A stretch of 64,000 bases of DNA from Seleniivibrio woodruffii. Its GTDB lineage: Bacteria; Chrysiogenota; Deferribacteres; Deferribacterales; Geovibrionaceae. Under the pieces are notes generated by a model. The model saw only the letters and a program-made list of their open reading frames with translations, searched no databases and was not told the DNA's origin. Both the position numbers and the translations under genes were made by a program. Of the stretch, positions 24,201 through 47,646 are shown in pieces. The stretch spans positions 744,770-808,769 of the forward strand of contig NZ_SMGG01000003.1 in NCBI RefSeq assembly GCF_004339245.1. Direction: 5' to 3'. The first letter of the stretch is position 1; the number at the start of each line of letters is the position of its first letter.

Positions 24201-27200
24201 AGGACGGCGACACTATCCTTATCCATGAGGGTGTTTACAGAGGACAGTTCAGCATAACGAAGGCTGTCACCATTGATGCCTTCCAGGGCGGAAACGTTGT
24301 GATCGAATCTCCGGACACAGCAGACCTTCAGGCTGTGAATCCCACAGAGCTTACCAATAACGGACGCTGGCGTATGCCCGTCATAAACGTTGACACCAAC
24401 GGCTCAGCCGGAACAGTCATAATCAAAAATATCACCATAGACGGCCGTGATCAGGCTGTTATGGATCTGAACAACGGAAGCGGCGATTTTATCGGTATCG
24501 GAATAGCCAACAGCAATGTTGTTGTGGACGGAGTGACGATTAAGAATATAAGAAGCTCCGACAGCGATATGTGGGGCGAAAGCGAAAACTACGGTATCCT
24601 TGCGGAGGCCGGAAGCGCACTGTTCACTCCGGTCAGCGTAACGGTCACAAATTCTGATATTTACAACTACCAGAAGACGGGAATCGTAGGCTGGGGACCG
24701 AATCTTGACATTACAATTACGGACAACGATATAACCGGAGCTGGAGTTGACGGTACATGTGGCCAGAACGGTATTCAGATAGGCTCTTCAAATACCGACC
24801 GTTATGGAACAACAGCCACAATAACAGGCAACACGATCTCCGATCTCGGCTTTGAAAACAACGTCTACGGTGCCACAGGTATAATCCTGAGACAGACAGG
24901 TGATGTCACCGTTTCAGACAACACGATATCAGGTACTGTGGACGGCTCGGGCAACTGTGCCGGCGTTACTGTATATCAGGGACTTAACGGTGTGACCATT
25001 ACAGTTGAGGACAACGTTTTCAACAACACCGACTATGCGATATTCAACGAGTTCCAGTCCAGCGGCGTAATCCTGAATGTGAACGGCAACGATTTCTCCG
25101 GCTCTGTTCTGGCCATTCTGGACAGCCACGGCCTGCCCGACACAGTATGGGGTAACAACACATTCGGCAGCTCGGCCACCAGCCTGACAGTGAACAGCAG
25201 CGGAACACCGATGAGCGGAAAGCTCTCCTACTATCTGTTCGACGGTGACGATACGCTCACCGACACGGGTTCAGTGGATTCGGTTATTTACGGCGGCGGC
25301 GGAAACGACACCCTCACAGCCGGAAGCGGGGACGACATCCTCGTGGGCGGTCTGGGTGACGACACGCTGACAGGCGGTGACGGCAATGACGTATTCCTGT
25401 TTGAAGCGGTTGAGTACTATCCCGAATCCACAACGGAAGTTATGTACAATGTGACCGACTTCGGCACAGACCTGATAAAAGATTTCTCTGAAGATGATAT
25501 TATCCGCATTTCAGGAGCAGATTTCGACAATCATAATGCAGTGGCAGGCAACGGAACCAACGTTCTGGCCGACACCATGCAGGTCAGCTACGACTCCGGA
25601 ACGGACAAAACCACCCTTTACATCGACACGGACGGCATCAACGGTGCTGACCTTGTTGTGAAACTGGACGGAGAGTTCGAAGCAACGGATTTCCTGATGA
25701 GCGGAACCGACATAAGATACGAGGTCAACGTAGCTCCGACCGTTTCACTGACGGCACTGGGCGGAACTTCGGATCAGACCACAACGGCACCTATAGCACT
25801 GTTTGATGCCTCAGCGGCGGATACAGGCAACAATTCACAGACGTTCTCATCCCTCACCCTCACGGTTGAAGGTGTTGAGGATGCGGCTGAATATATAGTT
25901 ATAGACAGCGTCGAGATAGCACTGACAAACGGCAACTCTGTCTCCGTTGCAGGGGGAACAGCATCTGTCGCCCTTGTTAACGGCACAGCGACCCTTGTGC
26001 TCTCCGGCCTTGCCCTTTCAAACAGCCAGATACTGTCGCTCATTGACAGCATCGCATATACGAACGATGAAGATGAACCCACCATTGGCGACAGGGTCAT
26101 CACCCTTACGGAGATAAAGGACAGCGGAAATGCGGCGAACACCGTAACCCCCAACATTGCCTCAACCGTCAGCGTCAACCTGTATTCAGAACCTGAACTC
26201 ACAGTGACAGGTTCTGATGTCACCTTCACCGAAAAAGGCGAGGATGCGGTGAGCCTGTTTGAAATAACAGCCGCCGACACAGGGGACAGCGGTCAGACCT
26301 TCACAGGAATCAGGCTTACGGTAACAAACGTTGCCGATGCCACTGAATATCTTGTGATAGGCGGCGCAGAGGTTGCTCTGGTGAACGGAACCAGCGTCAG
26401 TGTTGCGGGCGGAACAGCTTCGGTTACAGTCGTAAACGGTACCGCCACTCTGGTTCTCAGCGGAATAGATCTGGATAACACAGAGATGGCCGCACTGGTG
26501 GGCGGAATAAGCTACCTGAATACAGATACCACACTGACTGCGGGAGACAGGGTTATAACCATCACCGAGGTCACAGACAGCGGAACCGTAAGCAATGTCA
26601 GCACTCCCAACGTATCGGCAACAGTCAGCGTTGAGGATCTGTTCACTATACCCACAGTAACTGTTGCGGCTGCCGGAGGCACTCTGGCATATGCCGCCAC
26701 AACCCCCGTAGACCTGTTCGGAACGGTAACATCCGCCGATACAGGCGATGAAGGCGAATCCTTCACCGGGCTGAAACTGACAGTGACAAACGTTTCCGAT
26801 TCCACGGAAATCATAACCATAGGGGGAGTGGACGTTGCGCTTACCAACGGAACCAGTGTCAGCGTTGCGGGCGGAACAGCTTCGGTTACAGTCGTAAACG
26901 GCACTGCCACAGTGACACTCACCGGACTCGATCTTGACGCAGCAGAGCTTGGAACTCTTGTGGATGGTGCGGCATATAAAAATACCGGAATAACACCCAC
27001 AGGCGGCAACAGGGTTGTCACCCTCACGGAAATAAGCGACAGCGGTGCGGAGAACAACACTGTGACACCAAACGTGTCCTCAACAGTGAGCGTGACAGCA
27101 AGCCCCGCAATAACCAATGCAGCGTTCAATGCGGCGGCAGGGGTTATTACAGTCACAGGAACCGGACTGGCGGCAGGCGATGTTATCGATGCCACCAAGC

Positions 27201-29188
27201 TGACCCTGACGGGCGAGGGCGGAAACACCTATACGCTGGCCGGAACTTACACCGTTGCGGCAACTGCAAACGGATTCAGCCTGACACTGACAGAGACCGA
27301 CCTTCTGAACGTTAAAGGTATTCTGAACTCCAACGGAACAACGGCAGGCGGAAGCGGAACCTTCAACCTTGCGGCGGCTTCCGGCTGGAGTGTTACGAAA
27401 CCTGCGGCTGCGGATGCATCAAACGCTGTGACAGTGAGCGGTTCAGCATCGCCCGCTGTTTCATCCGCAACATACAACGCCGAAACCGGAGTTATCACCG
27501 TTACCGGTTCTAACTTTGTTAAACAGCCCGGTGCGGCAAACGACATAGACGTGACCAAGTTCACCTTCACAGGTCAGGGCGGCAGTGTGACACTCTCAAC
27601 CACTTCCAAGGTTGAGACAAGCTCCGGTTCAACTTTCTCAGTGACCCTGAGCACCGCCGACAAAGCCCTTGTGAATGCTCTTCTGGACAAAAACGGAACT
27701 GCCTCTTCCGGCGGAACCGCATATAACCTTTCTCTGGCCGACGACTGGAACGGACCTGTAACTGGCGGCAACACTGCCGACACCACAAACCCCATAACGG
27801 TGAGCGGTGTCAAGGTTGTTGAAACTGTAGACGGAGTTGCGGTTACAACTGAAACTACTACCGTTACCCAGACATACACCGACCTGAACGGAAACACAGT
27901 GACCCGTGAGGTTGAGACCGAAACGGTGACCGTTGCACCCGTCACCGACACAAGAGTGAATCAGGAAGGACCCGCCGCAACAGCTGAGATCCCGCTGTTC
28001 TGGGGCGAAAGCTCAAGAACGGAGTGGGCTACGGTTGCGAGCCTTCCCGTTGGCGTGGGTATAGCCACCAGCGGCGTTCGCTCACCTGTTGACAACAGAA
28101 CGCTGAACGACGCAATAGGCGACCTGCTTTACTATATCGATACGACCGCACCCACAACAGACGGAGCCAGAACAGGAATGCTGGCGGGCGGTTCGGGCTT
28201 CCTCCAGACACTTTCAGACTCCACCGACACTCTGATAGTGAACAAGGTGACCCTGACAGTTGCCGGAACGGACGTTCCTGCAACACCTGTCGTCATAAGC
28301 GGTACGGCAAACAGTGTAACCACACCCGCAGGAACCGCAACTCCCAAAGAGGCGATCGTTATTGATGCCTCCGCTCTTCCCGCCGGAACACACCTTGACC
28401 TGCAGAACATTGAGTTTGCGGTCATCATAGGCAGCGGAATCACCGTGAGGGGTGGTGACGGAGCCAACATCGTGTTTGCGGGAGAGGGCAGTCAGAACAT
28501 TCTGCTCGGTGCGGATGACGATGAACTCCATGCAGGCGACGGCGACGACTTTGTCGGCTCTCTGGCAGGAAACGACAGAATATTCGGCGAAGGCGGAAAC
28601 GACCGCATGTCCGGCGGCGACGGAAACGACTTTATGCACGGCGGAGACGGAATGGATACCGTGGTCTACAGCGGCAATATGAAGGACTACATCATTACCC
28701 GTGACCATGGTCTGACTTATATCAGCCCCGTTTCCAACCCGTCAGAAAAGGATGTTATCCTGAACTCCGAGCACATCGAGTTTGCCGACGGAACATACAA
28801 TATCGATAACAGCGATGAACTGACATATGTCGCATCGCTCTACACCCAGATTCTCGGCAGACAGCCCGAAGTTGACGGCTTCCAGTACTGGGCAGATCTG
28901 GTTGAAGATCATAACCTGTCTGTGGGCGATATGACCATCTGGTTCATGAAGTCCGCAGAGTATGAAACGGCTGCGGGCGTTGATTTCGACACCCTTTCTG
29001 CGGCAGATCAGGTTGAGCAGCTCTATGTTGCCCTGCTGGGAAGACCTTCGGATGCGGACGGTAAGGCTTACTGGCTGAGTGTTCTGGATTCAGGTCATAC
29101 CATTCAGGATGTTGCGGAAGGCTTCGTTACATCCGTTGAGATGCAGGGTGTGTATAACCTGCCCGACGATTGGAACTTCTTCTCTTAA
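15239..29188 (+). CDS. Giant RTX surface protein/adhesin with DUF4347 and DUF4214 ends
   Basis: 4649 residues with no Sec signal peptide. An N-terminal DUF4347 domain (about 5-165) carries HIISHG and VYGCNVA. Six bacterial adhesin-type repeats of about 145 residues share the core TEYLTIGGTDVALTNGNSV (near 517, 850, 1710, 3499, 3651 and 3804). A kelch-like propeller region spans about 1000-1410. Four IPT-like domains contain LTGEGGNTYTL or a variant (near 1860, 1975, 3955 and 4070). Two tandem modules of about 700 residues (2098-2796 and 2796-3497) each hold a beta-helix segment (GDTILLHDGVYRGQF) and an RTX block (GSGDDVLAGGLGDDTL). A last RTX block (4420-4480) and a DUF4214 domain (4525-4649) end the protein. 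RTX blocks bind calcium after type I secretion, and TolC/PrtD/HlyD-type genes lie 5 kb downstream. A role in adhesion or biofilm is inferred; substrate unknown. Confidence 0.88.
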   Translation: MSSFKQVSFVLNNVENYQQLAAEAGANSEVFIINSELDALEQMAEILQDYSDLDALHIISHGSSGVINLGSVQLSDTNINEYSAVLSVIGSSLSEEGDILVYGCNVASGYEGKSLIASLAQATGADIAASEDLTGAADKGGDWVLEFRSAEINVDSVSAEYAGVLDSVTYTFEVEDPLWSVLSTVSGGFADGYPSSLKYSAPDGNTLVFTLDDPDNAGFSIFQPMTGGELLWSGENDSYSSHPHSISIAMEGGGAFNPTSIKAAWDAAGNYIGNPVDGRPTPDITVTAYDENGDAIPGKSVTIHDVTSPQGFVTFDLSSFGSVYKIVVSTTGADLMLDDLVLDNTPAPSDTALLTFEAGDGTTSGLGTKTVTYDDTGSGVEFTVEATASQIISSSVGGAPDGRADAEALYFGWDEKETSIKVSVESGKAFDLVSFYISNQNGAGNEDFTITTDSGGSYTFTFIDTGSITKQLVTIPAGDADFNGITWFTITSPAGGAFIELDNISVENITAAAADAAPTLAATGATPSYAEGSTTGVDLFSSVTADTNDSGQVFTGFIVTVTNVSDTTEYLTIGGTDVALTNGNSVAVSGGTASVSIAAGTATVTVSGVSLANAAMGTLIDGITYKNLDTTATNGNRVVTVTQITDDGSSSNTAAPNISATVNVSGPIDITFDFEANTSPVSDDTGATVDSTATQTKNGETIEIVSTGGDFSVGAESAIFGMDIGAGFSGDILSFDMMDGDLDSEYASTRIDVDLQSGKYFTLKSISIFDNYNVDHIGQDIKIIASNGTEYTVVIDYEGDDNGGVTVDLSGVAGFDNITSFYIYANGLPMQLVIDNIELVNISSTPVLTAPTLSATGETPTFTEGGSDVDLFDTVTADTNDSGQDFTGFVLTVTNVADTTEYLTIGGTDVALTNGNSVSVSGGTASVSISGGTATVTVTGLNLNDSAFSSLIDGMTYKNTSGSVTIGNRVITVTQVTDEGSSNNTYSPNITSTVTVADSVSSLPYTILLRLTDTLNANFNTMAGYNIDGDKGSAIADSRYAMPDRLSSNMLVHGNLIYAVIYDNNANLYATFAKFDGVDFTFYEGITFSAVSTMVAADDGDVYMLATASTDSSKYYLYKFDAQTETVSKVIDIISHQSIIFEYADGKLYFACNEASGSYISGGVYTYDGTTVSALTISGGSTILGAPSNQSSYVVEFNGTTYIVGSETVGGNSIKNIYKIDGSGNAVKVTSNANQYLHPGQMCEYNGRLYFTLTDLTPSSETSYLYSIGTGASETPQLEWAGTRVYQATVLNGELYVVGGASAYALDLYKYDGSAFNKITNINTANNAYGITNLTYHDGKIYFLATAGIDNLRSLYAYDGTSTELIVSYTDLGGSGIRNELVNDIYNSTPLDIFNGNMAAFLTGARGIVYGESGDVITVAPNLVITDVDGNNITGATVEFSEGFQAGDLLAITEASGITASYNSSTGVLTLSGTATIAEYQAVLRTLELTAADETGDRVLLLRVTDESGTTSSATNLNAFASVAIADSESETVIVDFASMPTGLAESGWAGECSVASSNLDNIKFIMTASAVGTSLGSIVTQSDSGGGLQYNATDDTMYASVNNAWDLTTIRNVMSLVIASENGESFEFHGFTVKGSVMSLSGMNIVGYKDGVQVAQQSVAALSNSVNNIVLSSDFDDVDVVWITRVAGTFRAQFDDFIIIEKVSSAFAAPTLSATGATPVFDEASGTVVDLFSTVTADTNDSGQVFTGLKLTVTNVADTTEYLTIDGTDVALTNGNSVSVSGGTASVSISGGTATVTLTGFSLSNTDMGTLVDGITYKNDDSTATAGNRVVTITQITDDGASANTAALSISSTVTVREPSITSATYDASTGELVVTGAGLTAGDSIDTTKLTITGEGGNTYTLAGSYTVTASSATSFTVTLDATDQLFVEGLLNKNGTSSAGSTTFNLGAAAEWTAGAPADSTGNGVTVSNLSAPAISGVSYNAFTGVLTVTGTNFVHQPGAANDIDVSAFTFTGEGGGTYSLTNTSDVEITSATSFTVTLSATDEAAVEAILNANGTSSSDSTVYNIAVADNWNGPVTGGDISDSTTAVNVTGHGTAPVLDLNGGTAGTDVTLTLGAAESGLAPSVVISDVENDVSGWDGSTLTVQRVDSGGAADGCAHDVFSFVSVDNFVVNGSGITHGADSNGTLSTTGGTQFATWSYTTADGKLLISFDSDATTALVQEVASSIGYENATPYGDAVIEFSLYDGMITTKSEVTVTSNIIHVTQTDYDTDGDAADGLSLYEALAIAKDGDTILLHDGVYRGQFDITKAVTIDALNGENGNVVIESPDADDLVQVLPDMMTNNGRWRMPVLNVNTSGDAGTVTIKNITVDGRDQGLADGFANNKDLLGIGIVNSNVLIDNVSLSNFRCEDSGEWGWGENFPIMAEADSSLSSVVNVTIQNSDISNFQKTGIVGWGPMLNLTVDSTTITGSGTAGVAGQNGIQVGSGGLRTGTTATITNNTITNFGFLSSVYAASGVLIVNAGDLTITGNTFEGTADGSGRFSGVGINDVLNGTIEMNVSGNTFTNADYGILNEAYITHILTVGTNDFSGATIAVHDSYIIADPSTELPFDNATTISIHSTASPAVGAVAYYLYDGDDSFTDTGSVDSVVYGGGGDDTITTGSGDDVLAGGLGDDTLTGGAGEDVFLFQAQETVPEAPTVVVYDITDFGVDTITDMTQSDAIRVTGADFSDHIVLEGDGTNVEAASMQVSYDSGTNTTSLFIDTDGSDGADLQINLSGEFSASQFGFNGADIFIGAPTLDLNGAGGGTDVSVTLASAATGLIPAVEISDAENDIAGWNGASLTVQRVDSSGNADGSEYDVFGFAAASGITVTGSITEGADSNGTLSSGGTSFATWSYSSADGKLTIDFNGNATTALVQSAAEAISYTNDTPFGDANIQVTLDDGVRTVTSEVTVTSNIIHVTQTDFDTDGDAADGFSLAEALAMAQDGDTILIHEGVYRGQFSITKAVTIDAFQGGNVVIESPDTADLQAVNPTELTNNGRWRMPVINVDTNGSAGTVIIKNITIDGRDQAVMDLNNGSGDFIGIGIANSNVVVDGVTIKNIRSSDSDMWGESENYGILAEAGSALFTPVSVTVTNSDIYNYQKTGIVGWGPNLDITITDNDITGAGVDGTCGQNGIQIGSSNTDRYGTTATITGNTISDLGFENNVYGATGIILRQTGDVTVSDNTISGTVDGSGNCAGVTVYQGLNGVTITVEDNVFNNTDYAIFNEFQSSGVILNVNGNDFSGSVLAILDSHGLPDTVWGNNTFGSSATSLTVNSSGTPMSGKLSYYLFDGDDTLTDTGSVDSVIYGGGGNDTLTAGSGDDILVGGLGDDTLTGGDGNDVFLFEAVEYYPESTTEVMYNVTDFGTDLIKDFSEDDIIRISGADFDNHNAVAGNGTNVLADTMQVSYDSGTDKTTLYIDTDGINGADLVVKLDGEFEATDFLMSGTDIRYEVNVAPTVSLTALGGTSDQTTTAPIALFDASAADTGNNSQTFSSLTLTVEGVEDAAEYIVIDSVEIALTNGNSVSVAGGTASVALVNGTATLVLSGLALSNSQILSLIDSIAYTNDEDEPTIGDRVITLTEIKDSGNAANTVTPNIASTVSVNLYSEPELTVTGSDVTFTEKGEDAVSLFEITAADTGDSGQTFTGIRLTVTNVADATEYLVIGGAEVALVNGTSVSVAGGTASVTVVNGTATLVLSGIDLDNTEMAALVGGISYLNTDTTLTAGDRVITITEVTDSGTVSNVSTPNVSATVSVEDLFTIPTVTVAAAGGTLAYAATTPVDLFGTVTSADTGDEGESFTGLKLTVTNVSDSTEIITIGGVDVALTNGTSVSVAGGTASVTVVNGTATVTLTGLDLDAAELGTLVDGAAYKNTGITPTGGNRVVTLTEISDSGAENNTVTPNVSSTVSVTASPAITNAAFNAAAGVITVTGTGLAAGDVIDATKLTLTGEGGNTYTLAGTYTVAATANGFSLTLTETDLLNVKGILNSNGTTAGGSGTFNLAAASGWSVTKPAAADASNAVTVSGSASPAVSSATYNAETGVITVTGSNFVKQPGAANDIDVTKFTFTGQGGSVTLSTTSKVETSSGSTFSVTLSTADKALVNALLDKNGTASSGGTAYNLSLADDWNGPVTGGNTADTTNPITVSGVKVVETVDGVAVTTETTTVTQTYTDLNGNTVTREVETETVTVAPVTDTRVNQEGPAATAEIPLFWGESSRTEWATVASLPVGVGIATSGVRSPVDNRTLNDAIGDLLYYIDTTAPTTDGARTGMLAGGSGFLQTLSDSTDTLIVNKVTLTVAGTDVPATPVVISGTANSVTTPAGTATPKEAIVIDASALPAGTHLDLQNIEFAVIIGSGITVRGGDGANIVFAGEGSQNILLGADDDELHAGDGDDFVGSLAGNDRIFGEGGNDRMSGGDGNDFMHGGDGMDTVVYSGNMKDYIITRDHGLTYISPVSNPSEKDVILNSEHIEFADGTYNIDNSDELTYVASLYTQILGRQPEVDGFQYWADLVEDHNLSVGDMTIWFMKSAEYETAAGVDFDTLSAADQVEQLYVALLGRPSDADGKAYWLSVLDSGHTIQDVAEGFVTSVEMQGVYNLPDDWNFFS

Positions 29189-37336: not shown

Positions 37337-38649
37337 TGAAATACAGCGACGGCGAGATTAAAAGAGATTCGAAAAAATATGTGATCATCGGCCTCAGCGT
37401 GATGATTCTGGGGCTTGGTCTGTTCGGCGTGTGGGCTTTCACGGCTCCCCTCAGTCAGGGTGTTGTGGCTCCCGGCAGTCTGGCGTTTGTGGACAAGCGC
37501 AAGACGGTTCAGCATGTTTACGGCGGAACTGTAAAAGAGATTTTCATAAAAGAGGGCAGCAGGGTCAAGGCCGGACAGGTGCTTATGAAGCTGGACGATT
37601 CCTCCGGTTTTGCAAGGCTGACCGGTGTCCGTTCGGAATATTTCACAAATCTGGCTCTTGAGTCCAGACTGATGGCAGAAAGGCTTGGCAGGGCTTCCGT
37701 TCAGTATCCGAAGATGCTGACCGACAACATGGGCGATCCGGAGGTTGCAGACATCATCCGCACCCAGAACGACCTTTTCAGAAAGCGCCGTGATTCTCTG
37801 GTGAATGAAAAACGGATTCTGATGAACCAGAAACAGGGCGTTACGGAATACATAAGCCGCATGGAACAGCTTGCCCAGTCCAGAAACAAGCAGGTGGCTC
37901 TGCTTGAAAAGGAGATCGAGTCAGTCCGAAGCATAGCGGACGAGGGCTACTACCCCCGCAACAAGATGATTGAGCTTCAGCAGAATCTGCAGGGCATTGA
38001 GGCCACCAGAAGCGAGGAACTGGCCACCATAGAACGCACCAGAAGGAGCGTCGGCGAGCTTGATCTGAAAGTTCTTCAGGTTGACAGCGAGTTCAGCAAG
38101 GACGTTGAGGCCACTCTGACAGAGGTTCAGAAGAGGATAGCGGGGCTTAAAGAGGAATATAACGCCGCACAGATAACTTATAACTCAATGATAATAAAGG
38201 CTCCGGATGACGGTATCGTCCTCGGGCTTGCGGTGCATAATGCGGGCAGTGTTGTCACACCCGGCCAGAAGATTCTGGACATAGCGCCCATGCACGAAGC
38301 GCTCATTGTTCAGGCGGAGGTCATGCCCCACGATATCGATTCCGTCCGTCTCGGGCTTCGTTCAGAGGTGCGGATATCGGCTCTGGACATGCACAAAACC
38401 CCTTCGCTCTTCGGCGAGGTTATCATGGTGTCACCCGATGTGTTTGTGGATCAGAGCAGCGGACGCAGCTATTACATGGCGCAGATACGAATTCCGGAGA
38501 ACGAGCTGAAAGCCAAACTTGGTTCGACACAGAGACTTCAGGCGGGGATGCCTGCGGAGGTCATTATTGAGACCGGAAAAAGAACTTTTATGGAATATCT
38601 GATGAAGCCGTTCTTCAACAGATTCGCAATGTCCATGAAGGAACAGTAA
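37333..38649 (+). CDS. Type I secretion membrane fusion protein, HlyD/PrtE-like
   Basis: 438 residues with one N-terminal membrane anchor (VIIGLSVMILGLGLFGVWAF), a split lipoyl domain (GVVAPGSLAF, TVQHVYGGTVKEI, and later IIKAPDDGIVLGL), a long coiled coil (about 110-280) and a beta-barrel tail. It bridges the ABC exporter and TolC. Last gene of the export unit. Confidence 0.92.
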   Translation: MMKYSDGEIKRDSKKYVIIGLSVMILGLGLFGVWAFTAPLSQGVVAPGSLAFVDKRKTVQHVYGGTVKEIFIKEGSRVKAGQVLMKLDDSSGFARLTGVRSEYFTNLALESRLMAERLGRASVQYPKMLTDNMGDPEVADIIRTQNDLFRKRRDSLVNEKRILMNQKQGVTEYISRMEQLAQSRNKQVALLEKEIESVRSIADEGYYPRNKMIELQQNLQGIEATRSEELATIERTRRSVGELDLKVLQVDSEFSKDVEATLTEVQKRIAGLKEEYNAAQITYNSMIIKAPDDGIVLGLAVHNAGSVVTPGQKILDIAPMHEALIVQAEVMPHDIDSVRLGLRSEVRISALDMHKTPSLFGEVIMVSPDVFVDQSSGRSYYMAQIRIPENELKAKLGSTQRLQAGMPAEVIIETGKRTFMEYLMKPFFNRFAMSMKEQ

Positions 38650-38657
38650 AAATTTAT

Positions 38658-38718
38658 GTCACTCTGAGCTTTGCGAAGAGTCTCAAAGCGAGACCCCCAG
38701 GCATTGCCTCAGGGTGAC
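38658..38718. repeat. REP-like palindromic repeat between hlyD-like gene and nifA
   Basis: Begins GTCACTCTGAG and ends with the near-complement CTCAGGGTGAC, with GCGAAGAGTCTC inside. It is one copy of an element also present near 41.3, 53.7 and 61.0-61.2 kb. Between two convergent genes it could work as a terminator in both directions. Confidence 0.75.
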
Positions 38719-38721
38719 TTT

Positions 38722-40281
38722 CTATATTTTCTTAACCTCTATACCGTATTTCGCAATGCGGTAGTTCACCTGCCGCACAGTCATGTTCAGCATTCGTGCG
38801 GCCTTTGCCTGAACCCATCCGGCTCTCTGAAGAGCTTCGAGAAGCTGGGTTTTATCGGAATCATCTTTTGCCGCCGAAACAGGTTCGTCCTCTTCGGAGG
38901 AGTTTTCCATTATGCGTGAAAGGCACATGTCGCCGCTCTGACAGGACACGTGTTCTGGTTTTATCAGTCCGTCGCCTGCGGTCAGAGCCGCTCTTTCCAG
39001 ACAGTTTTCAAGCTCTCTTATGTTGCCCGGCCATGTGCAGTTGGCAAGGGGAGCCAAAGTGCTGCTGTTTATTGAAAAATTCTTTCCGTATGATTCGTTG
39101 AGACGTTCGATTATCTGAAGACAGATAGCGGGGATGTCCTCTTTCCGCTTGCGCAGGGGTGGCAGGTCTATTGTGAAAACGTTGAGCCTGTAATAGAGAT
39201 CCAGCCTGAATTTTCCGGCCTGAACCGCCACCTCCAGATTTTTGTTTGTTGCGGCCAGAATCCGCACATCAACCTTTGTGCTCTCCATTGTGCCCAGTTT
39301 TTCGATGGTCTTGTCCTGAAGCACCCGCAGAAGCTTGCTCTGTGCATCAAGGGGCATATCGCCCACCTCGTCCAGAAAGACGGTTCCCCCTTCGGCCTGC
39401 TCGAAGCGTCCTTTCTTTTCGGCGGATGCTCCGGCGAATGCACCCTTGGCATAGCCGAAAAGCTCGCTTTCGATGAGGTCGGCGGGTATTGCCGCACAGT
39501 TCACCGCAACGAAAGGTTTACCGCTGCGGTCGCTGTTGTAGTGTATGGTCTTGGCCACGACCTCCTTACCCGTTCCGCTTTCGCCCCGGATGAGAACCGA
39601 TGCGGAAGTGTTTGTGACCATGGTTATCTTATCAAAAACCTTCTCCATCAGCTTGCTGTTTCCCGCAAGCCCCTTGAAGCTGAATTTCGATTTAAGCTCG
39701 TTTATCAGGCTCAGATTCTCAGCCTCTATTCTGCTCTTTTCGTCTTTGATAATGCCAAGGGTATTCTGGAAATACTCGGAATTATGGAGAAACGAAGCGA
39801 CCAGATTGGCTATCATTTTCATGATCTCAACCTCGGTGGCGACGCTGTTCATTTGTGAGCTGAACTTGTCCACAGCCAGAACACCCAGTGTTCTGCCTTC
39901 ATACTTCAGCGGTACGGCTATGAAGCTGGTCTGTTCCTCTGCCGCCGGACGCCTGAGCCTGTTCAGAAACTGCGGCTCCTTCTCTATGTCCGGAATTAGA
40001 ATAGGCACTCCGAGACGGAACACCTTGCCGACAATCCCCTCGTCACAGTTGTAGGATATGCCTGAGGAGGTTGTGTCGTCTATGCCGACGTATGCCGTCA
40101 GGTTAAGCCTGTGGGTTCGTGAATCGTGGATCAGGATAAAAGCCCGCTCAAAAGACAGCGTGTCGTGCATCTGCTTAACAACTCCGTAGAGAGCATGTCT
40201 CCTGTTGGTGGAGCTGTTAAGGATAACGCTTATCTCATAAATGGTGTTGAGTGCCGTCTTAAAATAGTTGAGATATTTCAT
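38722..40281 (-). CDS. nifA: NifA, sigma54-dependent nif transcription activator
   Basis: 519 residues from the ATG at 40281 (MKYLNYFKTALN). Order: GAF domain (about 15-170), AAA+ domain with Walker A GESGTGKE near 240 and Walker B TVFLDEVGDMP, then a Fis-type helix-turn-helix at the end. The sigma54-contact loop reads GAFAGA (280-285), not GAFTGA. Cysteines at 415, 427, 447 and 453 give C-x11-C-x19-C-x5-C, close to the C-x11-C-x19-C-x4-C of oxygen-sensitive rhizobial NifA. No nifL is present. It should drive the four -24/-12 promoters in this window. Confidence 0.93.
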   Translation of the reverse strand: MKYLNYFKTALNTIYEISVILNSSTNRRHALYGVVKQMHDTLSFERAFILIHDSRTHRLNLTAYVGIDDTTSSGISYNCDEGIVGKVFRLGVPILIPDIEKEPQFLNRLRRPAAEEQTSFIAVPLKYEGRTLGVLAVDKFSSQMNSVATEVEIMKMIANLVASFLHNSEYFQNTLGIIKDEKSRIEAENLSLINELKSKFSFKGLAGNSKLMEKVFDKITMVTNTSASVLIRGESGTGKEVVAKTIHYNSDRSGKPFVAVNCAAIPADLIESELFGYAKGAFAGASAEKKGRFEQAEGGTVFLDEVGDMPLDAQSKLLRVLQDKTIEKLGTMESTKVDVRILAATNKNLEVAVQAGKFRLDLYYRLNVFTIDLPPLRKRKEDIPAICLQIIERLNESYGKNFSINSSTLAPLANCTWPGNIRELENCLERAALTAGDGLIKPEHVSCQSGDMCLSRIMENSSEEDEPVSAAKDDSDKTQLLEALQRAGWVQAKAARMLNMTVRQVNYRIAKYGIEVKKI

Positions 40282-40511
40282 GGATAAAAACGAGCAATAT
40301 ATATGCCACGAGACGACCGCCCAACGGCAGGGGCTGCGGAGGATTAATAGTCGTGAAGTGATTAAAAAATGGTCAGGTACAGCATAAAAATTATTCAGAA
40401 GACTGCATAAAACTGCCATTTAAAAGCAATGCCGGGGCTGAGAATCAAACGGCACAGAGATTGCTTGAATATGGGCGTACGCAACGACAACCGTTTTAGG
40501 AGGATAGCTAG
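40282..40511. other. Divergent nifA/ferredoxin intergenic region
   Basis: Holds the ferredoxin sigma54 promoter. I found no exact TGT-N10-ACA activator site in it, and no clear promoter for nifA itself. Confidence 0.6.
40450..40465 (+). promoter_or_regulatory. Sigma54 (-24/-12) promoter of the nif ferredoxin
   Basis: CGGCACAGAGATTGCT: GG at 40451 and GC at 40463 with the required 10 bases between, against consensus TGGCAC-N5-TTGCW. Predicted start near 40475, leaving a leader of about 37 bases with AGGAGG before the ATG. Confidence 0.82.
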
Positions 40512-40775
40512 ATGGCATTCATTACGGGAATCAGAAAGAACGGAAAAGAGTGGACTCCCAAGTTCATATTCGAACTGAGCAAAGAGTCCTGCATTGCCTG
40601 CGGACGCTGTTTCAAAGCGTGTGCATACGCCTGCCTCGCACTTGAGGAATACGAAGACGATGACGGTGAAAAAACCTACATGTCTATAGTGGATGACGGC
40701 GCATGCATAGGCTGTGAGGCCTGCGCAAAAGCCTGCCCCAAAAGCTGCTTCACACACGCTCCTGTTGAAGCGTGA
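40512..40775 (+). CDS. Nif-associated 2[4Fe-4S] ferredoxin (ferredoxin III type)
   Basis: 87 residues. Two cluster-binding stretches, CIACGRCFKACAYACLAL and CIGCEACAKACPKSC, give two 4Fe-4S sites; the start MAFITGIRKNGKEWTPKFI resembles the nif-specific ferredoxin III family. Probably an electron donor to NifH or to cofactor assembly. It has its own sigma54 promoter, and a strong terminator follows. Confidence 0.88.
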   Translation: MAFITGIRKNGKEWTPKFIFELSKESCIACGRCFKACAYACLALEEYEDDDGEKTYMSIVDDGACIGCEACAKACPKSCFTHAPVEA

Positions 40776-40788
40776 TCTGTAATCGTGT

Positions 40789-40818
40789 GCCCTCCCCTCT
40801 GCGGGAGGGCGTTTTTTT
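40789..40818 (+). terminator. Terminator between ferredoxin and nifZ-like gene
   Basis: GCCCTCCC and GGGAGGGC arms (8 bp) with a 6-base loop and a run of seven T. It ends only 14 bp before the next start codon, so nifZ would depend on read-through. Confidence 0.9.
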
Positions 40819-40831
40819 ATGAGGTGATGAT

Positions 40832-41104
40832 ATGGAACTGAAATATAACCAGAAGGTCAGAGTGACCAAAATGATAAGAGACGACGGAACCTGTGCGGGA
40901 TGCAAAAGAGGCACCCCCGTGGCTTTCGAGGGGATGGAAGGATTCATCTGCGACATTACGGAGTTCCACTTCGAACCGGTTTACGTTGTCCATTTCCTTG
41001 AGACCAACCAGAAGCTGGGATTCCGCGGCAAAGAGCTTGAGATCATCGAGGACTATGACGAGGAAGAGGGCAGGTGGATAGTTCTGGATAAAAAGACTGC
41101 GTGA
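40832..41104 (+). CDS. nifZ: NifZ-like nitrogenase maturation protein
   Basis: 90 residues. The first 70 match the NifZ domain: KVRVTKMIRDDGTCAG, a glycine-centred turn, then VYVVHFLETNQKLGFRGKEL. NifZ helps form the second P-cluster of the MoFe protein in Azotobacter. An acidic tail (EDYDEEEG) follows. It sits just after the ferredoxin terminator; GAGGTGATG precedes the start. Confidence 0.75.
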   Translation: MELKYNQKVRVTKMIRDDGTCAGCKRGTPVAFEGMEGFICDITEFHFEPVYVVHFLETNQKLGFRGKELEIIEDYDEEEGRWIVLDKKTA

Positions 41105-41245
41105 GGCTCTCAGCTCTCGCAGTGACGCCCGAAACTGTCATTATGCTGAGATCATGAATTATCAGACGGTATGAGGCTTTAAGCCTCCCTTTTATAAAGG
41201 GAGGTTTGGAGGGATTTTCTTATAAGCAGGGGAAGATGATAACTG

Positions 41246-41269
41246 CAGGACGTGCTTTTAATAATAGGT
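41246..41269 (+). repeat. 24-bp direct repeat, copy 1
   Basis: Starts CAGGACGTGCTTTTAATA and is identical to bases 41442-41465. Here the left arm of the palindrome seen in copy 2 is missing. Confidence 0.85.
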
Positions 41270-41276
41270 CACATTT

Positions 41277-41304
41277 GAGATTCTTCGCTGGTGCTCAGAA
41301 TGAC
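41277..41304 (-). repeat. REP-like repeat unit
   Basis: GAGATTCTTCGC then GCTCAGAATGAC: one unit of the dispersed repeat, in reverse orientation to the unit at 38658. Confidence 0.75.
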
Positions 41305-41429
41305 GGCTGATTTTATGTCAGTAATAGGTCAAAACTTCAGGATGAAGTTTCGTGGAGGATGATTTCAGGGCTTTGCACTGAAGTCTGACGGAACGTGAGC
41401 GCAGGGAGGTTATACCGACCGGAGCGTTG

Positions 41430-41465
41430 TTATTAAAAGCACAGGACGTGCTTTTAATAATAGGT
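41430..41465. repeat. 13-bp perfect hairpin overlapping direct repeat copy 2 and the draT stop
   Basis: TTATTAAAAGCAC (41430-41442) and GTGCTTTTAATAA (41448-41460) form a perfect stem around AGGAC. The draT TAA stop lies in it. The right half and flank repeat bases 41246-41269. May act as a draT 3'-end structure. Confidence 0.75.
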
Positions 41466-42284
41466 AACAACTGTATCGTAGCGTCCTCCAAGGACAAGGT
41501 ATTCTTTTTCGCCGACGAAGCTTAAAGAGGGCAGAACCTCCGAGAAGAAAACTATCTTTGTGAAGGGGATCTCCGAGGTAAGTATATAGTCGCCGAACTG
41601 GGATGCGATGTCCCTGTCGGATGTGAACGACACAAGTGAATTCTGTTCGATGCAGAGTCTTGTCTTGTCATATTCCTTTACGACAAGGTGTTCTGAAAGA
41701 TCGTTAACTCCTCTGTAAAGAGTCAGTTTTGGCAGTTTGTCCGCATAGAAAGTCTTCAGAATACACTGAGTATAGGTGTAGAGGAGATCGAGCTGATGGA
41801 AGATAAGGTTTTTGTTGTGTTTGCTGTCCATCTTTTCGACCATGTATTCGTAATATTCCTCGCTGTTGACGTCCGGAATAATGTTTTTGTGATAAAAAGG
41901 CGTGATTCCGAATCTGCTTTCAACCCAACCCTTCATAACGGCTCCCTCGATGCTGTTGGAGTCGAAAAGCCAGCCTTTCAGAAGTCTGGTATAGCTTCCC
42001 ATCTTTTTGCCGTTGTGCTTTTCGGAAAGGGAGAAGAGGGTGTCCATTGCGTTTGTGAAGACTCCGCAGGCGTTTTCGATGCTGTCGGCTTTCTGGATCG
42101 CCCTGAATATCTCGCCGTAATACTCCCACACCCCGCTTATGGTTATGGGCAGAACGTTCAGATTATATTCATTGCTGACAAACATATAGGTAGGGATATT
42201 GATGAGGTTGGAGTAGTGATAGAACCTCTTGAGATCTTTAAGCCTCGATATGCTGCTTTTTTGTTTTTCAACGCCCATATACAT
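41454..42284 (-). CDS. draT: NAD+-dinitrogenase-reductase ADP-ribosyltransferase (DraT)
   Basis: 276 residues from the ATG at 42284 (TTG 42287 or ATG 42278 also possible; no strong ribosome-binding site). Family blocks: FYHYSNLINIP, then LKGWLFDSNSIEGAVMKGW and ESRFGITPFYHK, LTLYRGVND, and LVSFTSDRDIASQFGDYI near the C-terminus. DraT moves ADP-ribose from NAD+ to the arginine of NifH (Arg101 here), switching nitrogenase off in response to ammonium or darkness/low energy. It faces away from draG, with a gap of about 30 bp, instead of forming the usual draTG operon. Confidence 0.9.
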   Translation of the reverse strand: MYMGVEKQKSSISRLKDLKRFYHYSNLINIPTYMFVSNEYNLNVLPITISGVWEYYGEIFRAIQKADSIENACGVFTNAMDTLFSLSEKHNGKKMGSYTRLLKGWLFDSNSIEGAVMKGWVESRFGITPFYHKNIIPDVNSEEYYEYMVEKMDSKHNKNLIFHQLDLLYTYTQCILKTFYADKLPKLTLYRGVNDLSEHLVVKEYDKTRLCIEQNSLVSFTSDRDIASQFGDYILTSEIPFTKIVFFSEVLPSLSFVGEKEYLVLGGRYDTVVTYY

Positions 42285-42313
42285 CAAATAGATGAATTTG
42301 CAGGAGTTTGCAA

Positions 42314-43216
42314 ATGAAAAATGAGCTTCTGCGGAGGGCTTTGGGGAGCTATCTGGGGTTTGCGGTGGGCGATGCGCTGGGGGCGACGACTGAGTTTATG
42401 AACCCCAGAGAGATAAAAGAGGAATACGGAGTGCACAACAGGATAATCGGCGGCGGCTGGCTCAGGCTCAAGGCGGGCAGAGTCACCGATGACACCGAGA
42501 TGAGCCTTGCGCTGGGCAGCAGCATCATTGAGCAGAAGGGTTTTCTGCTGACATCCGTTGCTGATCATTTTGTTAAATGGATGAAATCCAAACCTGTGGA
42601 CATCGGTTCAACAGTCCGCAGGGGACTGAGAGACTACGTTACTATGGGCAGAACCGAAGCTCCGTACTCCGATCAGTCTGCGGGCAACGGAGCCGCAATG
42701 CGCAACCTTCCTGTGGTGCTCTATTGTTTTAAGGACTGGGACAGATTCGAATATATGTCTATACGGCAGGGGCGGATAACCCACAACAACGAGCACTCGG
42801 ACAGGATCACCCTTGTGTTCGGCGAAATGGTGCGTGAGCTTTTCATATCAGGCGACAAGCTGAAAGCACTAGAGATAGGCAACAGGCTGGTTCGTGAGAA
42901 TCCGAAGTATTCATATTCAAATTATAAAGGCGAGGCCACAGGCTACGTTATAGATACTTTTAAGACGGTGATGCATTTTTTTGCAGAGGGCGACAGTTTT
43001 GAGCAGATACTGACGGGAACCGTCAATCAGGGCGGCGATGCGGACACCAACGGCGCACTGGCGGGAATGCTGGCAGGCGCACTTTACGGTGTTAATAATA
43101 TTCCTTCCAAATGGCTTAGAAAACTGGAGACAAAGGTTGTGGACTCTGTCAGCGAACAGACGGGACGGCTTTTGAATCTGGAAGTGAGGGTGCATGATGC
43201 AATTTCAAACGGGTGA
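42314..43216 (+). CDS. draG: ADP-ribosyl-dinitrogenase-reductase hydrolase (DraG)
   Basis: 300 residues from the ATG at 42314, preceded by CAGGAG; a TTG at 42308 is less likely. Metal-ligand motifs of ADP-ribosylglycohydrolases are intact: GDALGATTEF, VTDDTEMSLAL near residue 57, and GGDADTNGALAGMLAGA near residue 240. It removes ADP-ribose from NifH Arg101 and reactivates nitrogenase. The last 20 bases overlap the macrodomain gene. Confidence 0.92.
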   Translation: MKNELLRRALGSYLGFAVGDALGATTEFMNPREIKEEYGVHNRIIGGGWLRLKAGRVTDDTEMSLALGSSIIEQKGFLLTSVADHFVKWMKSKPVDIGSTVRRGLRDYVTMGRTEAPYSDQSAGNGAAMRNLPVVLYCFKDWDRFEYMSIRQGRITHNNEHSDRITLVFGEMVRELFISGDKLKALEIGNRLVRENPKYSYSNYKGEATGYVIDTFKTVMHFFAEGDSFEQILTGTVNQGGDADTNGALAGMLAGALYGVNNIPSKWLRKLETKVVDSVSEQTGRLLNLEVRVHDAISNG

Positions 43217-43628
43217 TCTTCTTGATTATGTGGGGAAAGCTCCTCTGGTGATAACCACCAACGGAACTGTGCGGAAAAACGGTAAGGCTAATCTGGGTTC
43301 GGGAAATGCGAAACAGGTGGGCGATGTTCTGCCGTGGCTTGATGCGAAACTGGGCTATCTGCTGGATCAGTTCGGAAACCATGTGCACCATCTGGACAGC
43401 ATGGTTGTCAGCTTTCCCGTTGAACACAGCTGGCAGGAGAGGGCAGACATAGGGCTTATAAAGCGTTCGGCCATAGAGCTTGTCATGCTGGTTGACCAGA
43501 TAGGCTGGGGACAGGTTTATATGCCTCTTCCGGGATGCGGAAAAGGGGGCTTGCGGCCGTCTGATGTGATAGCGGTGCTTGCGCCTCTGCTGAACGACAG
43601 ATTTATAGTGCTCAATAAAAGGGGCTGA
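43194..43628 (+). CDS. Macrodomain-like ADP-ribose-binding protein
   Basis: 144 residues (a second ATG at 43197 is better spaced from GAGGGTG). It resembles small stand-alone macrodomains: VITTNGTVRKNGKANLGSGN matches the ADP-ribose-binding loop, and PLPGCGKGGLRPSDV matches the second loop (usually GxGxGG). Macrodomains bind or hydrolyse ADP-ribose species. It overlaps draG and so is very likely co-translated with it, suggesting processing or sensing of ADP-ribose released by DraG. Function is inferred. Confidence 0.75.
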   Translation: MMQFQTGDLLDYVGKAPLVITTNGTVRKNGKANLGSGNAKQVGDVLPWLDAKLGYLLDQFGNHVHHLDSMVVSFPVEHSWQERADIGLIKRSAIELVMLVDQIGWGQVYMPLPGCGKGGLRPSDVIAVLAPLLNDRFIVLNKRG

Positions 43629-43640
43629 AACAGCCCCTAT
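43614..43640 (-). terminator. Convergent terminator between macrodomain gene and secreted protein
   Basis: GGGGCTG, AAA loop, CAGCCCC (43621-43637). Read on the minus strand it runs into a T tract, so it best serves the minus-strand gene; the macrodomain stop lies inside it. Confidence 0.8.
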
Positions 43641-43642
43641 GA

Positions 43643-44164
43643 CTACTCGAAATAGATGCTCTGTATATCAGCCTTGTTGACGGGAACGCTGATTATCTCA
43701 CCGTTCATAAGTCTTATCTTCATTGACGGGACGGGTTGCACCGGCTGTTCCACCAGTTCGATGGACTGGTTCGACGAAGGATCGGGCACGAAAAGATTCC
43801 TTTTGCCCTTGATGCCCATGTCCAGAATCACAACCGAGTTCGAATATACCCCGCCGTTGACGGTCTGTCCGTCTGTGGTGGTGACCATGACAACGTCGGC
43901 CTTTGTGCCGCCCGCCGAATAGTAATACTGTCCCTGAAGATGTACTATCGATTTGATCTTGCTCATGGGAACTTTAAAATAGTGTCCGGTGCTTTCAAAA
44001 AGTGAGATGAAGCTGTCGCCGTTGAATCCGGCAACTGTTCCTTCAACGATATTGCCCGATTTCTGAACAGCTTTTATCCTCGCCCCGACATCCATGCCGT
44101 CGGCAAAAGACGGAATAGTTATCAGAAACACCGCAAGAAACAGAAGTGATTTTATATTGCGCAT
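43643..44164 (-). CDS. Secreted protein of unknown function (paralogue A)
   Basis: 173 residues with a signal peptide (MRNIKSLLFLAVFLITIPSFA). The mature part has small beta-rich blocks: DVGARIKAVQKSGNIVEGTV, VPMSKIKSIVHLQGQYY, TTDGQTVNGGVYSN. It is a paralogue of the next gene, with which it shares G[AS][RK]IKAV, EGTV, [VM]P and DGQTV-GGV. A second TDG-like block follows at the C-terminus (MKIRLMNGEIISVPV). GGAGG precedes the ATG. No known family recognised; periplasmic location inferred. Confidence 0.7.
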   Translation of the reverse strand: MRNIKSLLFLAVFLITIPSFADGMDVGARIKAVQKSGNIVEGTVAGFNGDSFISLFESTGHYFKVPMSKIKSIVHLQGQYYYSAGGTKADVVMVTTTDGQTVNGGVYSNSVVILDMGIKGKRNLFVPDPSSNQSIELVEQPVQPVPSMKIRLMNGEIISVPVNKADIQSIYFE

Positions 44165-44221
44165 AATATCCTCCTTATTAATAATACACCTTTGCTTGTA
44201 AAAACAGCGAAATAAGAAGGA

Positions 44222-44247
44222 TAAAAAACGGGGCTGAAAAGCCCCTG
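44222..44247 (-). terminator. Terminator of secreted paralogue B
   Basis: GGGGCT, GAAA, AGCCCC; on the minus strand followed by a run of T. Confidence 0.82.
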
Positions 44248-44262
44248 ATATGAAAATAATGA

Positions 44263-44709
44263 TTAAAGCTTGCTGACTGCCGAAGAGTCCTCAATCTCGA
44301 TACTCCGGAAACGGTGCATATCCGGAATCATAAGGTTTGCGGATTCTCCGCTGACCGATTCAAAAGCGATCACTGCGCTGACATTCACTCCGCCGTAAAC
44401 CGTCTGACCGTCTTTGGTCACAATCTTTACGACGTTCATCTTAGTTCCGTTTGCCGCTGTGTACTGTTCACCTGCGACGGATGTAACAGAGCGTATCTGT
44501 TCAACGGGCATTCTGAAATGCGTCCCCTCCTTGTTGATGAGCAGGACAGCTTTTGCGTCAGCCACGTTGACCACCGTGCCCTCATAAACCTTTCCGGTGG
44601 CCTTGCATACCGCCTTTATTTTGGAGCCTACTTCAAAGGCATGGGCGGCAGGGTTCAGGAAGGTTACGATCAGTAAAATAAGAAAAGTCTGTGTTAAATT
44701 GTGTAGCAT
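44263..44709 (-). CDS. Secreted protein of unknown function (paralogue B)
   Basis: 148 residues with a signal peptide (MLHNLTQTFLILLIVTFL, cleaved after AAHA). Mature blocks FEVGSKIKAVCKATGKVYEG, MPVEQIRSVTSVAG and KDGQTVYGGV align with paralogue A, but the C-terminal extra block is absent. GGAG precedes the ATG. Each copy has its own terminator, so they are likely separate transcripts lying between draG and nifH. Function unknown. Confidence 0.7.
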   Translation of the reverse strand: MLHNLTQTFLILLIVTFLNPAAHAFEVGSKIKAVCKATGKVYEGTVVNVADAKAVLLINKEGTHFRMPVEQIRSVTSVAGEQYTAANGTKMNVVKIVTKDGQTVYGGVNVSAVIAFESVSGESANLMIPDMHRFRSIEIEDSSAVSKL

Positions 44710-45022
44710 ATTTTATCTCCGTGTATTTTTATATAGTTGAACTTTAAATTTATGCAATGCGAAATCTGCCTCTGCGGCGAGTTTTATGCGGAAATATCTG
44801 ACATTTCGAGGGAAAAAATTTGTTAAGACGGGTTGTTTGACTGTCGGGTTTAAAAAATGACCATCTGGTGACTTTTTAATCATCAATAGCTGCTATTTGA
44901 ACACGTAATAAAGATTACAATTCCACTGCGCCGGACACCTTAAAGATTACGTTTGAGTCTGATGAAATCTGCAATGCCTGTTTTAAAATGATGTAAGGGA
45001 CTGTTGATAAAGCATGAAAGGC

Positions 45023-45046
45023 GGATTGTAGCGTTTATTACAATCC
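45023..45046 (+). promoter_or_regulatory. NifA upstream activator sequence (TGT-N10-ACA)
   Basis: TGT at 45027 and ACA at 45040 with exactly ten bases between, set in an 8-bp perfect dyad GGATTGTA/TACAATCC. It lies about 115 bp ahead of the nifH -24/-12 element, the normal distance. A T-run follows, so terminator-like behaviour is possible, but no plus-strand gene ends upstream. Confidence 0.85.
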
Positions 45047-45109
45047 GTTTTTGCTCCTTTCTGCCCAAAGAATGGACAGGAAACGGCATTTCCAGTGTCT
45101 TGTTTGTGA

Positions 45110-46066
<957 letters not shown>

Positions 46067-46086
46067 CCCCATAGGAATTAAAAGGA

Positions 46087-46161
46087 GTGGCGTGTCTGAA
46101 AAAGTGTCTTTCCCATTCGGCGGTAAGCGGCCGGATTCTTCAGGCATTTTTAAGACGCCAC
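46087..46161 (+). promoter_or_regulatory. Predicted stem-loop between nifH and nifD
   Basis: GTGGCGT (46087-46093) pairs with ACGCCAC (46155-46161), with 2 more pairs past a bulge, enclosing about 60 bases. It could stabilise or separate nifH from nifDK message, as described for nifH in other species. Fold not calculated. Confidence 0.45.
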
Positions 46162-46166
46162 GTTAA
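46092..46166 (+). CDS. Possible 24-residue small protein between nifH and nifD
   Basis: GTG start 5 bases after AAAGGAG; reads MSEKVSFPFGGKRPDSSGIF then KTPR and stops at TAA. Ribosome-binding site, start and stop are well placed, but the length is too short for a statistical case, and the same bases form a hairpin. Confidence 0.3.
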   Translation: MSEKVSFPFGGKRPDSSGIFKTPR

Positions 46167-46200
46167 AAGAAGCGTTCAGTGAAATTTAAGAGGTCAACCT

Positions 46201-47646
46201 ATGTCTAATAAAAATGTGCATGAACACGGCGTTGAAGTTATGGAGGATATCCTTAACGGATACAACGACGCAACAGCGAAAGACAGGAAAAAGAAAATAG
46301 AGGTTGTTAAGGCCGAAGACGTTAAATGCGGCATTAACGCCAACAGAAAGATACGCCCCGGCGTAATGTCCATGAGAGGATGCGCCTATGCGGGAGCGAA
46401 AGGTGTGGTTTTCGGACCCATCAAGGATATGATCCACATCAGCCACGGTCCCGTAGGATGCGGCCAGTATTCATGGTCTGCCAGACGTAACTTTGCAAAC
46501 GGCGTTCCCGGCGTAAGCAACTTTGTTACAATGCAGATCACATCAGACTTTCAGGAGAAGGACATCGTTTTCGGCGGCGACAAGATGCTGACAAACCTCA
46601 TCCACGAGGCTGACAAGCTGTTTCCCCTTAACAAAGGTGTGTCCGTCCTCTCCGAGTGCCCCATCGGTCTCATCGGCGATGACATCGAGGCGGTTTCCAG
46701 AGCCACTTCAAAAGATATCGGCAAACCCGTTATCCCCTGCCGCTGCGAGGGTTTCCGCGGTGTTTCCCAGTCTCTGGGTCACCACATCGCAAACGACTCA
46801 CTGCGTGACTGGATATACGAAAAGGACGTTCAGGGCGTAGAGGTTGAAGACAGCCCCTACAACGTTGCGCTCCTTGCCGACTACAACATCGGCGGCGACG
46901 CATGGAGCTCCAGAAAAATTCTTGAGGAGATGGGACTCAACGTTATCTGCCAGTCGACAGGCGACTCAACCGTAAGCGAGATCGCCAACATGACCAAGGC
47001 GAAAGTGATCCTGCTCCACTGCTACCGTTCAATGAACTACATTGCAAGGTATGTTGAAGAGAAGCACCAGATCCCGTGGGTTGAGTTCAACTTCTTCGGA
47101 CCCACTCAGATCGTTAAGAGTATGAGAAAAATAGCTTCTCATTTTGATGAAACAATTCAGGCCAAGACTGAAAAGATAATCGCTGAAAAATATCAGCCTC
47201 AGTTCGACGAGATACTGAAAAGGTTCAAACCCAGAGTTGAAGGCAGAAGCTGTATGCTGTTTGTCGGCGGTCTTCGCCCCAGACACATCATCCCCGCTTT
47301 CCGTGACCTCGGTATAGACGTTGTTATCACAGGATATGAGTTCGCTCACAACGACGACTACGCAAGAACCCTTGAATATGTGGAGAATACAACCTTTATC
47401 GTTGACGACATGAACGAATACGAGATGGAAAAACTCCTTGAGAACTTCCGCCCCGACATAGTGGGTTCCGGTATCAAAGAGAAATACTCCACACAGAAAC
47501 AGGGTATCCCCTTCCGTCAGATGCACTCATGGGATTACTCAGGCCCCTACCACGGCGTGGACGGCTTCAAAGTATTCGCAAGAGACATCGACATGGCCAT
47601 CAACGGAGCGGTCTGGAAACACATCACTCCCCCCTGGAAGAAGTAG
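46201..47646 (+). CDS. nifD: Nitrogenase molybdenum-iron protein alpha chain NifD
   Basis: 481 residues. P-cluster cysteines are in MRGCAYAG and [10 protein letters not shown] and in the [10 protein letters not shown] block. The FeMo-cofactor cysteine is in [11 protein letters not shown], and the cofactor histidine lies in [15 protein letters not shown]. It forms the catalytic alpha2beta2 protein with NifK and reduces N2 to ammonia. GAGG precedes the start; nifK follows after 21 bp. Residues point to the Mo-type enzyme. Confidence 0.98.

Follow-up and report, generated by a model that had tools for sequence, protein, structure and literature searches.

Next to the nitrogenase genes of Seleniivibrio woodruffii we have found a small gene which is predicted to code for a stand-alone macrodomain of the DarG/TARG1 (ALC1-like) type. 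It has 144 amino acids and occupies positions 43,194 or 43,197 to 43,628 (plus strand) of the window, the 64,000 nt stretch of DNA that was analysed. Our main reading, to which we give a probability of about one half, is that it belongs to a distinct DarG/TARG1-like clade recruited to the nitrogenase ADP-ribosylation cycle: it would be mainly a putative reader of ADP-ribose, or a second eraser of arginine type. We hold more tentatively a narrower version, that the clade is a putative third dedicated component of the nitrogenase switch in several bacterial phyla: its ancestor would have removed ADP-ribose from nucleic acids, and a change from Lys to Glu would have made of it a specific reader or eraser of the ADP-ribosyl-arginine of NifH.

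The neighbouring genes were identified as draT and draG in the initial annotation, and their profile matches agree: judged by sequence, both are genuine members of their families. The draT gene, an NAD+-dinitrogen-reductase ADP-D-ribosyltransferase, is found at 41,454–42,287 on the minus strand, divergent from draG (PF07357, 303.6 bits, 1.2e-90). The draG gene codes for the ADP-ribosyl-[dinitrogen reductase] hydrolase and ends at 43,216 on the plus strand; it scores 372.7 bits with TIGR02662, above the cut-off of 337 bits, and also matches PF03747 (3.4e-62). It may start at TTG 42,308 or at ATG 42,314; the latter follows CAGGAG and is the probable start. The substrate gene nifH lies at 45,152–46,066 (plus strand) and its translation contains GCAGRGVI, which we take to be the motif of the DraT target arginine (Arg101). 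The three parts of the DraT/DraG nitrogenase switch, draT, draG and a NifH with the target arginine, are all present. The starts of nifH and nifD are 1.5–2.6 kb beyond the macrodomain gene; nifZ and a gene for a nifA-type regulator are on the opposite side of the locus. A search for sigma-54 -12/-24 sites with up to 3 mismatches in positions 38,000–47,000 gave none. The divergence of draT had been taken as a separation of the writer from the eraser and the reader. We reject this argument: draT and draG are head to head throughout the phylum, with and without the macrodomain, so the layout is uninformative on this point.

Two other features of the window are worth mentioning. Between the macrodomain gene and nifH (43,643–44,709, minus strand) there are two tandem paralogous genes for small, secreted-looking proteins, 36% identical, one of them with a weak DUF6982 match; their spacing and copy number differ among related genomes. 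At 15,239–29,188 (plus strand) a single open reading frame of 4649 residues is followed by genes which by eye belong to type I secretion (ABC transporter, membrane-fusion protein, TolC-like): it is probably a giant secreted adhesin beside nif.

The macrodomain gene is closely tied to draG. The stop codon of draG ends inside it, at 23 nt if the first ATG is taken as the start and at 20 nt, the value given in the initial annotation, if the second is; the overlap occupies 43,194–43,216 (plus strand), with GTGAGG immediately upstream. The gene probably starts at the second ATG (43,197), since this is the one which aligns with its relatives. An overlap of 11–32 nt is conserved in all eight genomes, from two genera of the family, in which draG runs into the macrodomain gene, and GTGAGG precedes the latter in all eight; it is a plausible ribosome-binding site. 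Within the genus the macrodomain has a dN/dS of 0.03–0.14, similar to draG (0.04–0.13). As the overlap is conserved, both genes are very probably on a common transcript. A chance reading frame is ruled out by purifying selection, by the conserved overlap with its GTGAGG and by the confidently predicted fold. A hairpin at the macrodomain stop codon (43,620–43,638) is terminator-like for the minus strand, at the end of the facing gene 43,643–44,164; it is weakly supported, with 4 sites found versus 3.2 expected.

The predicted fold bears out the small macrodomain-like protein of the initial annotation. Pfam gives a single weak match, PF01661 (E 0.17). Other profiles are more informative: the DarG model NF048014 matches one partial stretch (6.9e-6, 25.6 bits) and phrog_335 matches with 2.3e-15. 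An AlphaFold (AF2) model, calculated from an alignment of 14 sequences, has pLDDT 94.1 and pTM 0.88. Its best Foldseek matches in the PDB are the DarG macrodomains of Thermus aquaticus and M. tuberculosis and human TARG1; Poa1p and viral macrodomains are also matched. For 5m3e the values are E 6e-9 and TM 0.79 (TMq)/0.75. The structural and profile matches both place DarG and TARG1, the ALC1-like class, as the closest relatives. The loops TTNG..LGSGN and PGCGKGG are conserved in the same 14-sequence alignment; the second, PLPGCGKGGL, is the pyrophosphate-binding loop of macrodomains and is encoded at 43,524–43,553 (plus strand).

The clade has a signature of its own, FPVE, encoded in the window at 43,413–43,424 (plus strand; Phe74–Glu77). 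All 51 aligned orthologues have Glu in this motif (FPIE once), whereas the nine phage, plasmid and other relatives all have Lys at the same position (FPVK, FPTK or LPVK). HMMER alignments place the Glu on the FPTK lysine of DarG; on the assumption of a ten-residue tag in the crystallised chain, this would be Lys80, equivalent to Lys84 of TARG1. The split between the clade and its Lys relatives has support 99/99, and the Lys/Glu state changes once on the macrodomain tree. GCGxGG(L/M) is found in 51 of 51 members and is also a feature of the clade, as the relatives differ at the last Gly. The median pI is about 6.3 in the clade versus about 9.1 in the relatives; the window protein has 7.9. Six of the 51 members have another residue in place of the TTN asparagine, which is likely equivalent to an asparagine with an important part in the turnover of ALC1-like hydrolases. 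In SCO6735 the change of Gln85 to Glu, at the position of the FPVE Glu, abolished the hydrolysis of thymidine-ADP-ribose (PMC9411070). A role of the FPVE macrodomain as an eraser of ADP-ribose from DNA is unlikely because of the Lys-to-Glu swap and the lost basic charge. Glu at the catalytic position argues against a DarG-like role on DNA but says nothing against activity on other substrates.

We have studied the distribution of the clade, collected with a profile made from members of the clade itself. A scan of genome contigs for close relatives gave four loci only, all of the type found in the genus of the window. Other genera of the same family and genomes from other classes of the phylum have the macrodomain gene away from draG. 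All 14 genomes of the phylum with a strong macrodomain match carry draT and draG; five others carry draT and draG without the macrodomain. In a sample of 385 genomes, 15 of 15 strong matches are in draT carriers, which total 23; this co-occurrence represents few independent events, because most of these genomes belong to one clade. Outside the phylum there was one strong match in about 330 sampled genomes, and that genome is among only four there with draT.

The order of this last genome comprises 141 genomes, nearly all with nifH, draT and draG. The macrodomain is present in 81 of them; genomes with draT and draG but no macrodomain make up about a third to two fifths of the order. In 11 genomes from three genera it adjoins draG, with a divergent orientation in the seven loci which were read, either directly or with one reading frame between the macrodomain and draG. 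In 30 further genomes it is at most 25 kb from draG or nifH, and in six well-assembled ones it is far from draG. The remaining 34 genomes are split between contigs or have no draG call and were left out, so that 41 of 47 informative genomes have the macrodomain within 25 kb of draG or nifH. Two further Pseudomonadota have other arrangements: a string draT-draG-orf-macrodomain and, once, nifH-nifD-nifK-macrodomain, where the macrodomain gene overlaps by 4 nt the next small gene, NifX/NafY-like by eye. Four clade members from two genera had no nif genes within the stretch that was read. On the macrodomain tree, which has 58 rows and is the only means by which these linkage counts account for kinship, adjacency to draG requires at least five changes. 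These gene orders support a linkage to draG and nif which recurs independently in distant bacteria. The dedicated pairing of draG and a macrodomain which had been suggested is therefore not confined to this genome: it recurs in varied arrangements. The two outcomes which the initial annotation named as refutations, no structural match to a macrodomain, or a pairing unique to this genome with a gene not transcribed with draG, have thus not come about, with transcription judged from the conserved overlap.

Some additional genes were noticed in these regions. The nif region of the gamma-type genomes also codes for a small conserved protein with the motif PKFxGxPDxxPFxRxD, whose gene directly adjoins draG, is next to the macrodomain gene or has another place there (L117:7907–8338, minus strand; L131:1914–2267; L118:1917–2261; L158:1937–2353, minus strand; L144:1112–1489; L168:10332–10634). 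Two members were scanned and have no Pfam or NCBIfam match; the draG-linked form was searched for in the genome of the window and not found. In genome G841 the gene of the FPVE macrodomain is followed by another one which by eye codes for a macrodomain of MacroD type (L157:1501–2538). Of five genomes of the genus of the window, four have an additional draT which is more typical and has no draG of its own; the window genome lacks it. In the two loci read (centre of L063 and L066) this draT comes after the gene of a nifA-like regulator, and an anfO-type gene, judged by eye, is nearby.

How might such a protein act in the DraT/DraG cycle? It would be made with DraG, probably from the same message, and its pocket would still bind ADP-ribose. 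At the end of this pocket where the linkage lies, Glu77 would suit a cationic acceptor such as the guanidinium of NifH Arg101 better than DNA or a carboxylate. A precedent may be the arginine-specific macrodomain MavL, in which Glu107 has been proposed to keep the side chain of the arginine in place (PMC10951314); the FPVE Glu could play a similar part, by analogy and not by homology. The macrodomain may bind ADP-ribosyl-NifH, or the ADP-ribose released by DraG, and would be a reader or hand-off factor which tunes the rate of nitrogenase switch-on, or else an arginine-type second eraser. This recruitment to the nitrogenase cycle is favoured by the predicted fold, the overlap with draG in eight genomes, the low dN/dS, the varied linkages to draG and nif, the co-occurrence with draT and the Lys-to-Glu change with its shift in pI. 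Against it count the unlinked copies, the draT/draG genomes without the macrodomain, the regions read without nif genes and the absence of a DUF4804 match.

Other explanations share part of this evidence. The protein might be a scavenger or sensor of free ADP-ribose, which binds what DraG releases and relieves product inhibition or reports DraG activity, with NifH untouched. The overlap and probable co-translation with draG, the predicted fold and an invariant Glu in place of the catalytic Lys, which fits a binder, agree with this; however, little ADP-ribose flows from NifH and one genome has the macrodomain inside a nifHDK string, not with draG, so we find it rather unlikely. Somewhat less likely still is an arginine-specific second eraser proper, in which Lys-to-Glu made a new site cleaving ADP-ribosyl-arginine, perhaps of an anomer or at sites beyond DraG. 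The invariant Glu at the linkage end and the existence of arginine-specific macrodomains (PMC10951314) fit it, but the TTN asparagine is replaced in six members and DUF4804 is unmatched in Pfam. A general house-keeping enzyme (for O-acetyl-ADP-ribose, phosphate ends or DNA adducts), present in nif regions by chance or joint transfer, would agree with the unlinked positions in several genera and with the phage relatives of the family. We find it improbable in view of the varied local arrangements with draG, the repeated changes of adjacency, the absence of the macrodomain from most sampled genomes and a chance of 25-kb linkage which we estimate at about 1% per genome (50 kb in 4 Mb). Finally, DarG and phage proteins are the best characterised relatives, but the idea that the gene is left over from a phage or DarTG defence module next to nif is hardly credible: purifying selection is strong, no darT partner was noticed in the loci read, and the clade is separate and well supported, with Glu for Lys and a shifted pI.

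The DraT/DraG switch is usually presented as two enzymes under the control of PII proteins and AmtB. The FPVE macrodomain would seem to be a third participant in the control of nitrogenase, so far undescribed: in the open-licence literature we found no description of a macrodomain paired with draG, nitrogenase or nif clusters, and the pairing was equally unfamiliar to the initial annotation. The core idea of the latter is strengthened as regards the macrodomain and its dedicated association with draG and nitrogenase, while the argument from draT fell. How and why the ALC1-like hydrolases have diversified is a stated open question of the field (PMC7050489); the FPVE clade is a natural Lys-to-Glu experiment on this diversification. 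Nitrogenase switch-off is also a limit for engineered nitrogen fixation.

We may finally compare the protein with known systems. In Azospirillum the draTGB operon has DraB/NifO as its third gene, likewise small, downstream of draG and a suspected regulator; it belongs to the ArsC/thioredoxin-like family (PMC5249018), and the predicted macrodomain fold of our protein rejects this identity. The arginine-specific macrodomains of DUF4804 (MavL, Larg1) offer a possible analogy, an acidic residue toward the arginine linkage, but they are of a different, PARG-like class without sequence match to the window protein; membership is rejected, as only PF01661 is found in Pfam. The minimal ALC1-like macrodomains TARG1/OARD1 and SCO6735 have the GCG loop in common with it. 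However, the Lys84/Asp125 dyad of TARG1 is missing, with Glu and Gly at those positions, and Gln85 of SCO6735 is replaced by the inactivating Glu (PMC9411070). The DarG macrodomain, the DNA ADP-ribosyl glycohydrolase antitoxin (PDB 5M3E/5M3I), has the same predicted fold and loop order and is the best structural match, but the identity is about 20%, the NF048014 score is far below its curated cut-off of 250 bits, the catalytic Lys80 is Glu in every clade member, the clade is near-neutral to acidic and the neighbours are draG/draT or nif genes. The nearest sequences outside the clade, with about 35–43% identity, are the phrog_335 phage macrodomains (Listeria LIS04, SP-15, Moorella MTATph1). They share the TTNG..G.G and PGCG motifs with the clade of the window; the phage proteins have FPVK/FPTK and a basic pI, the clade has FPVE and GCGxGG.
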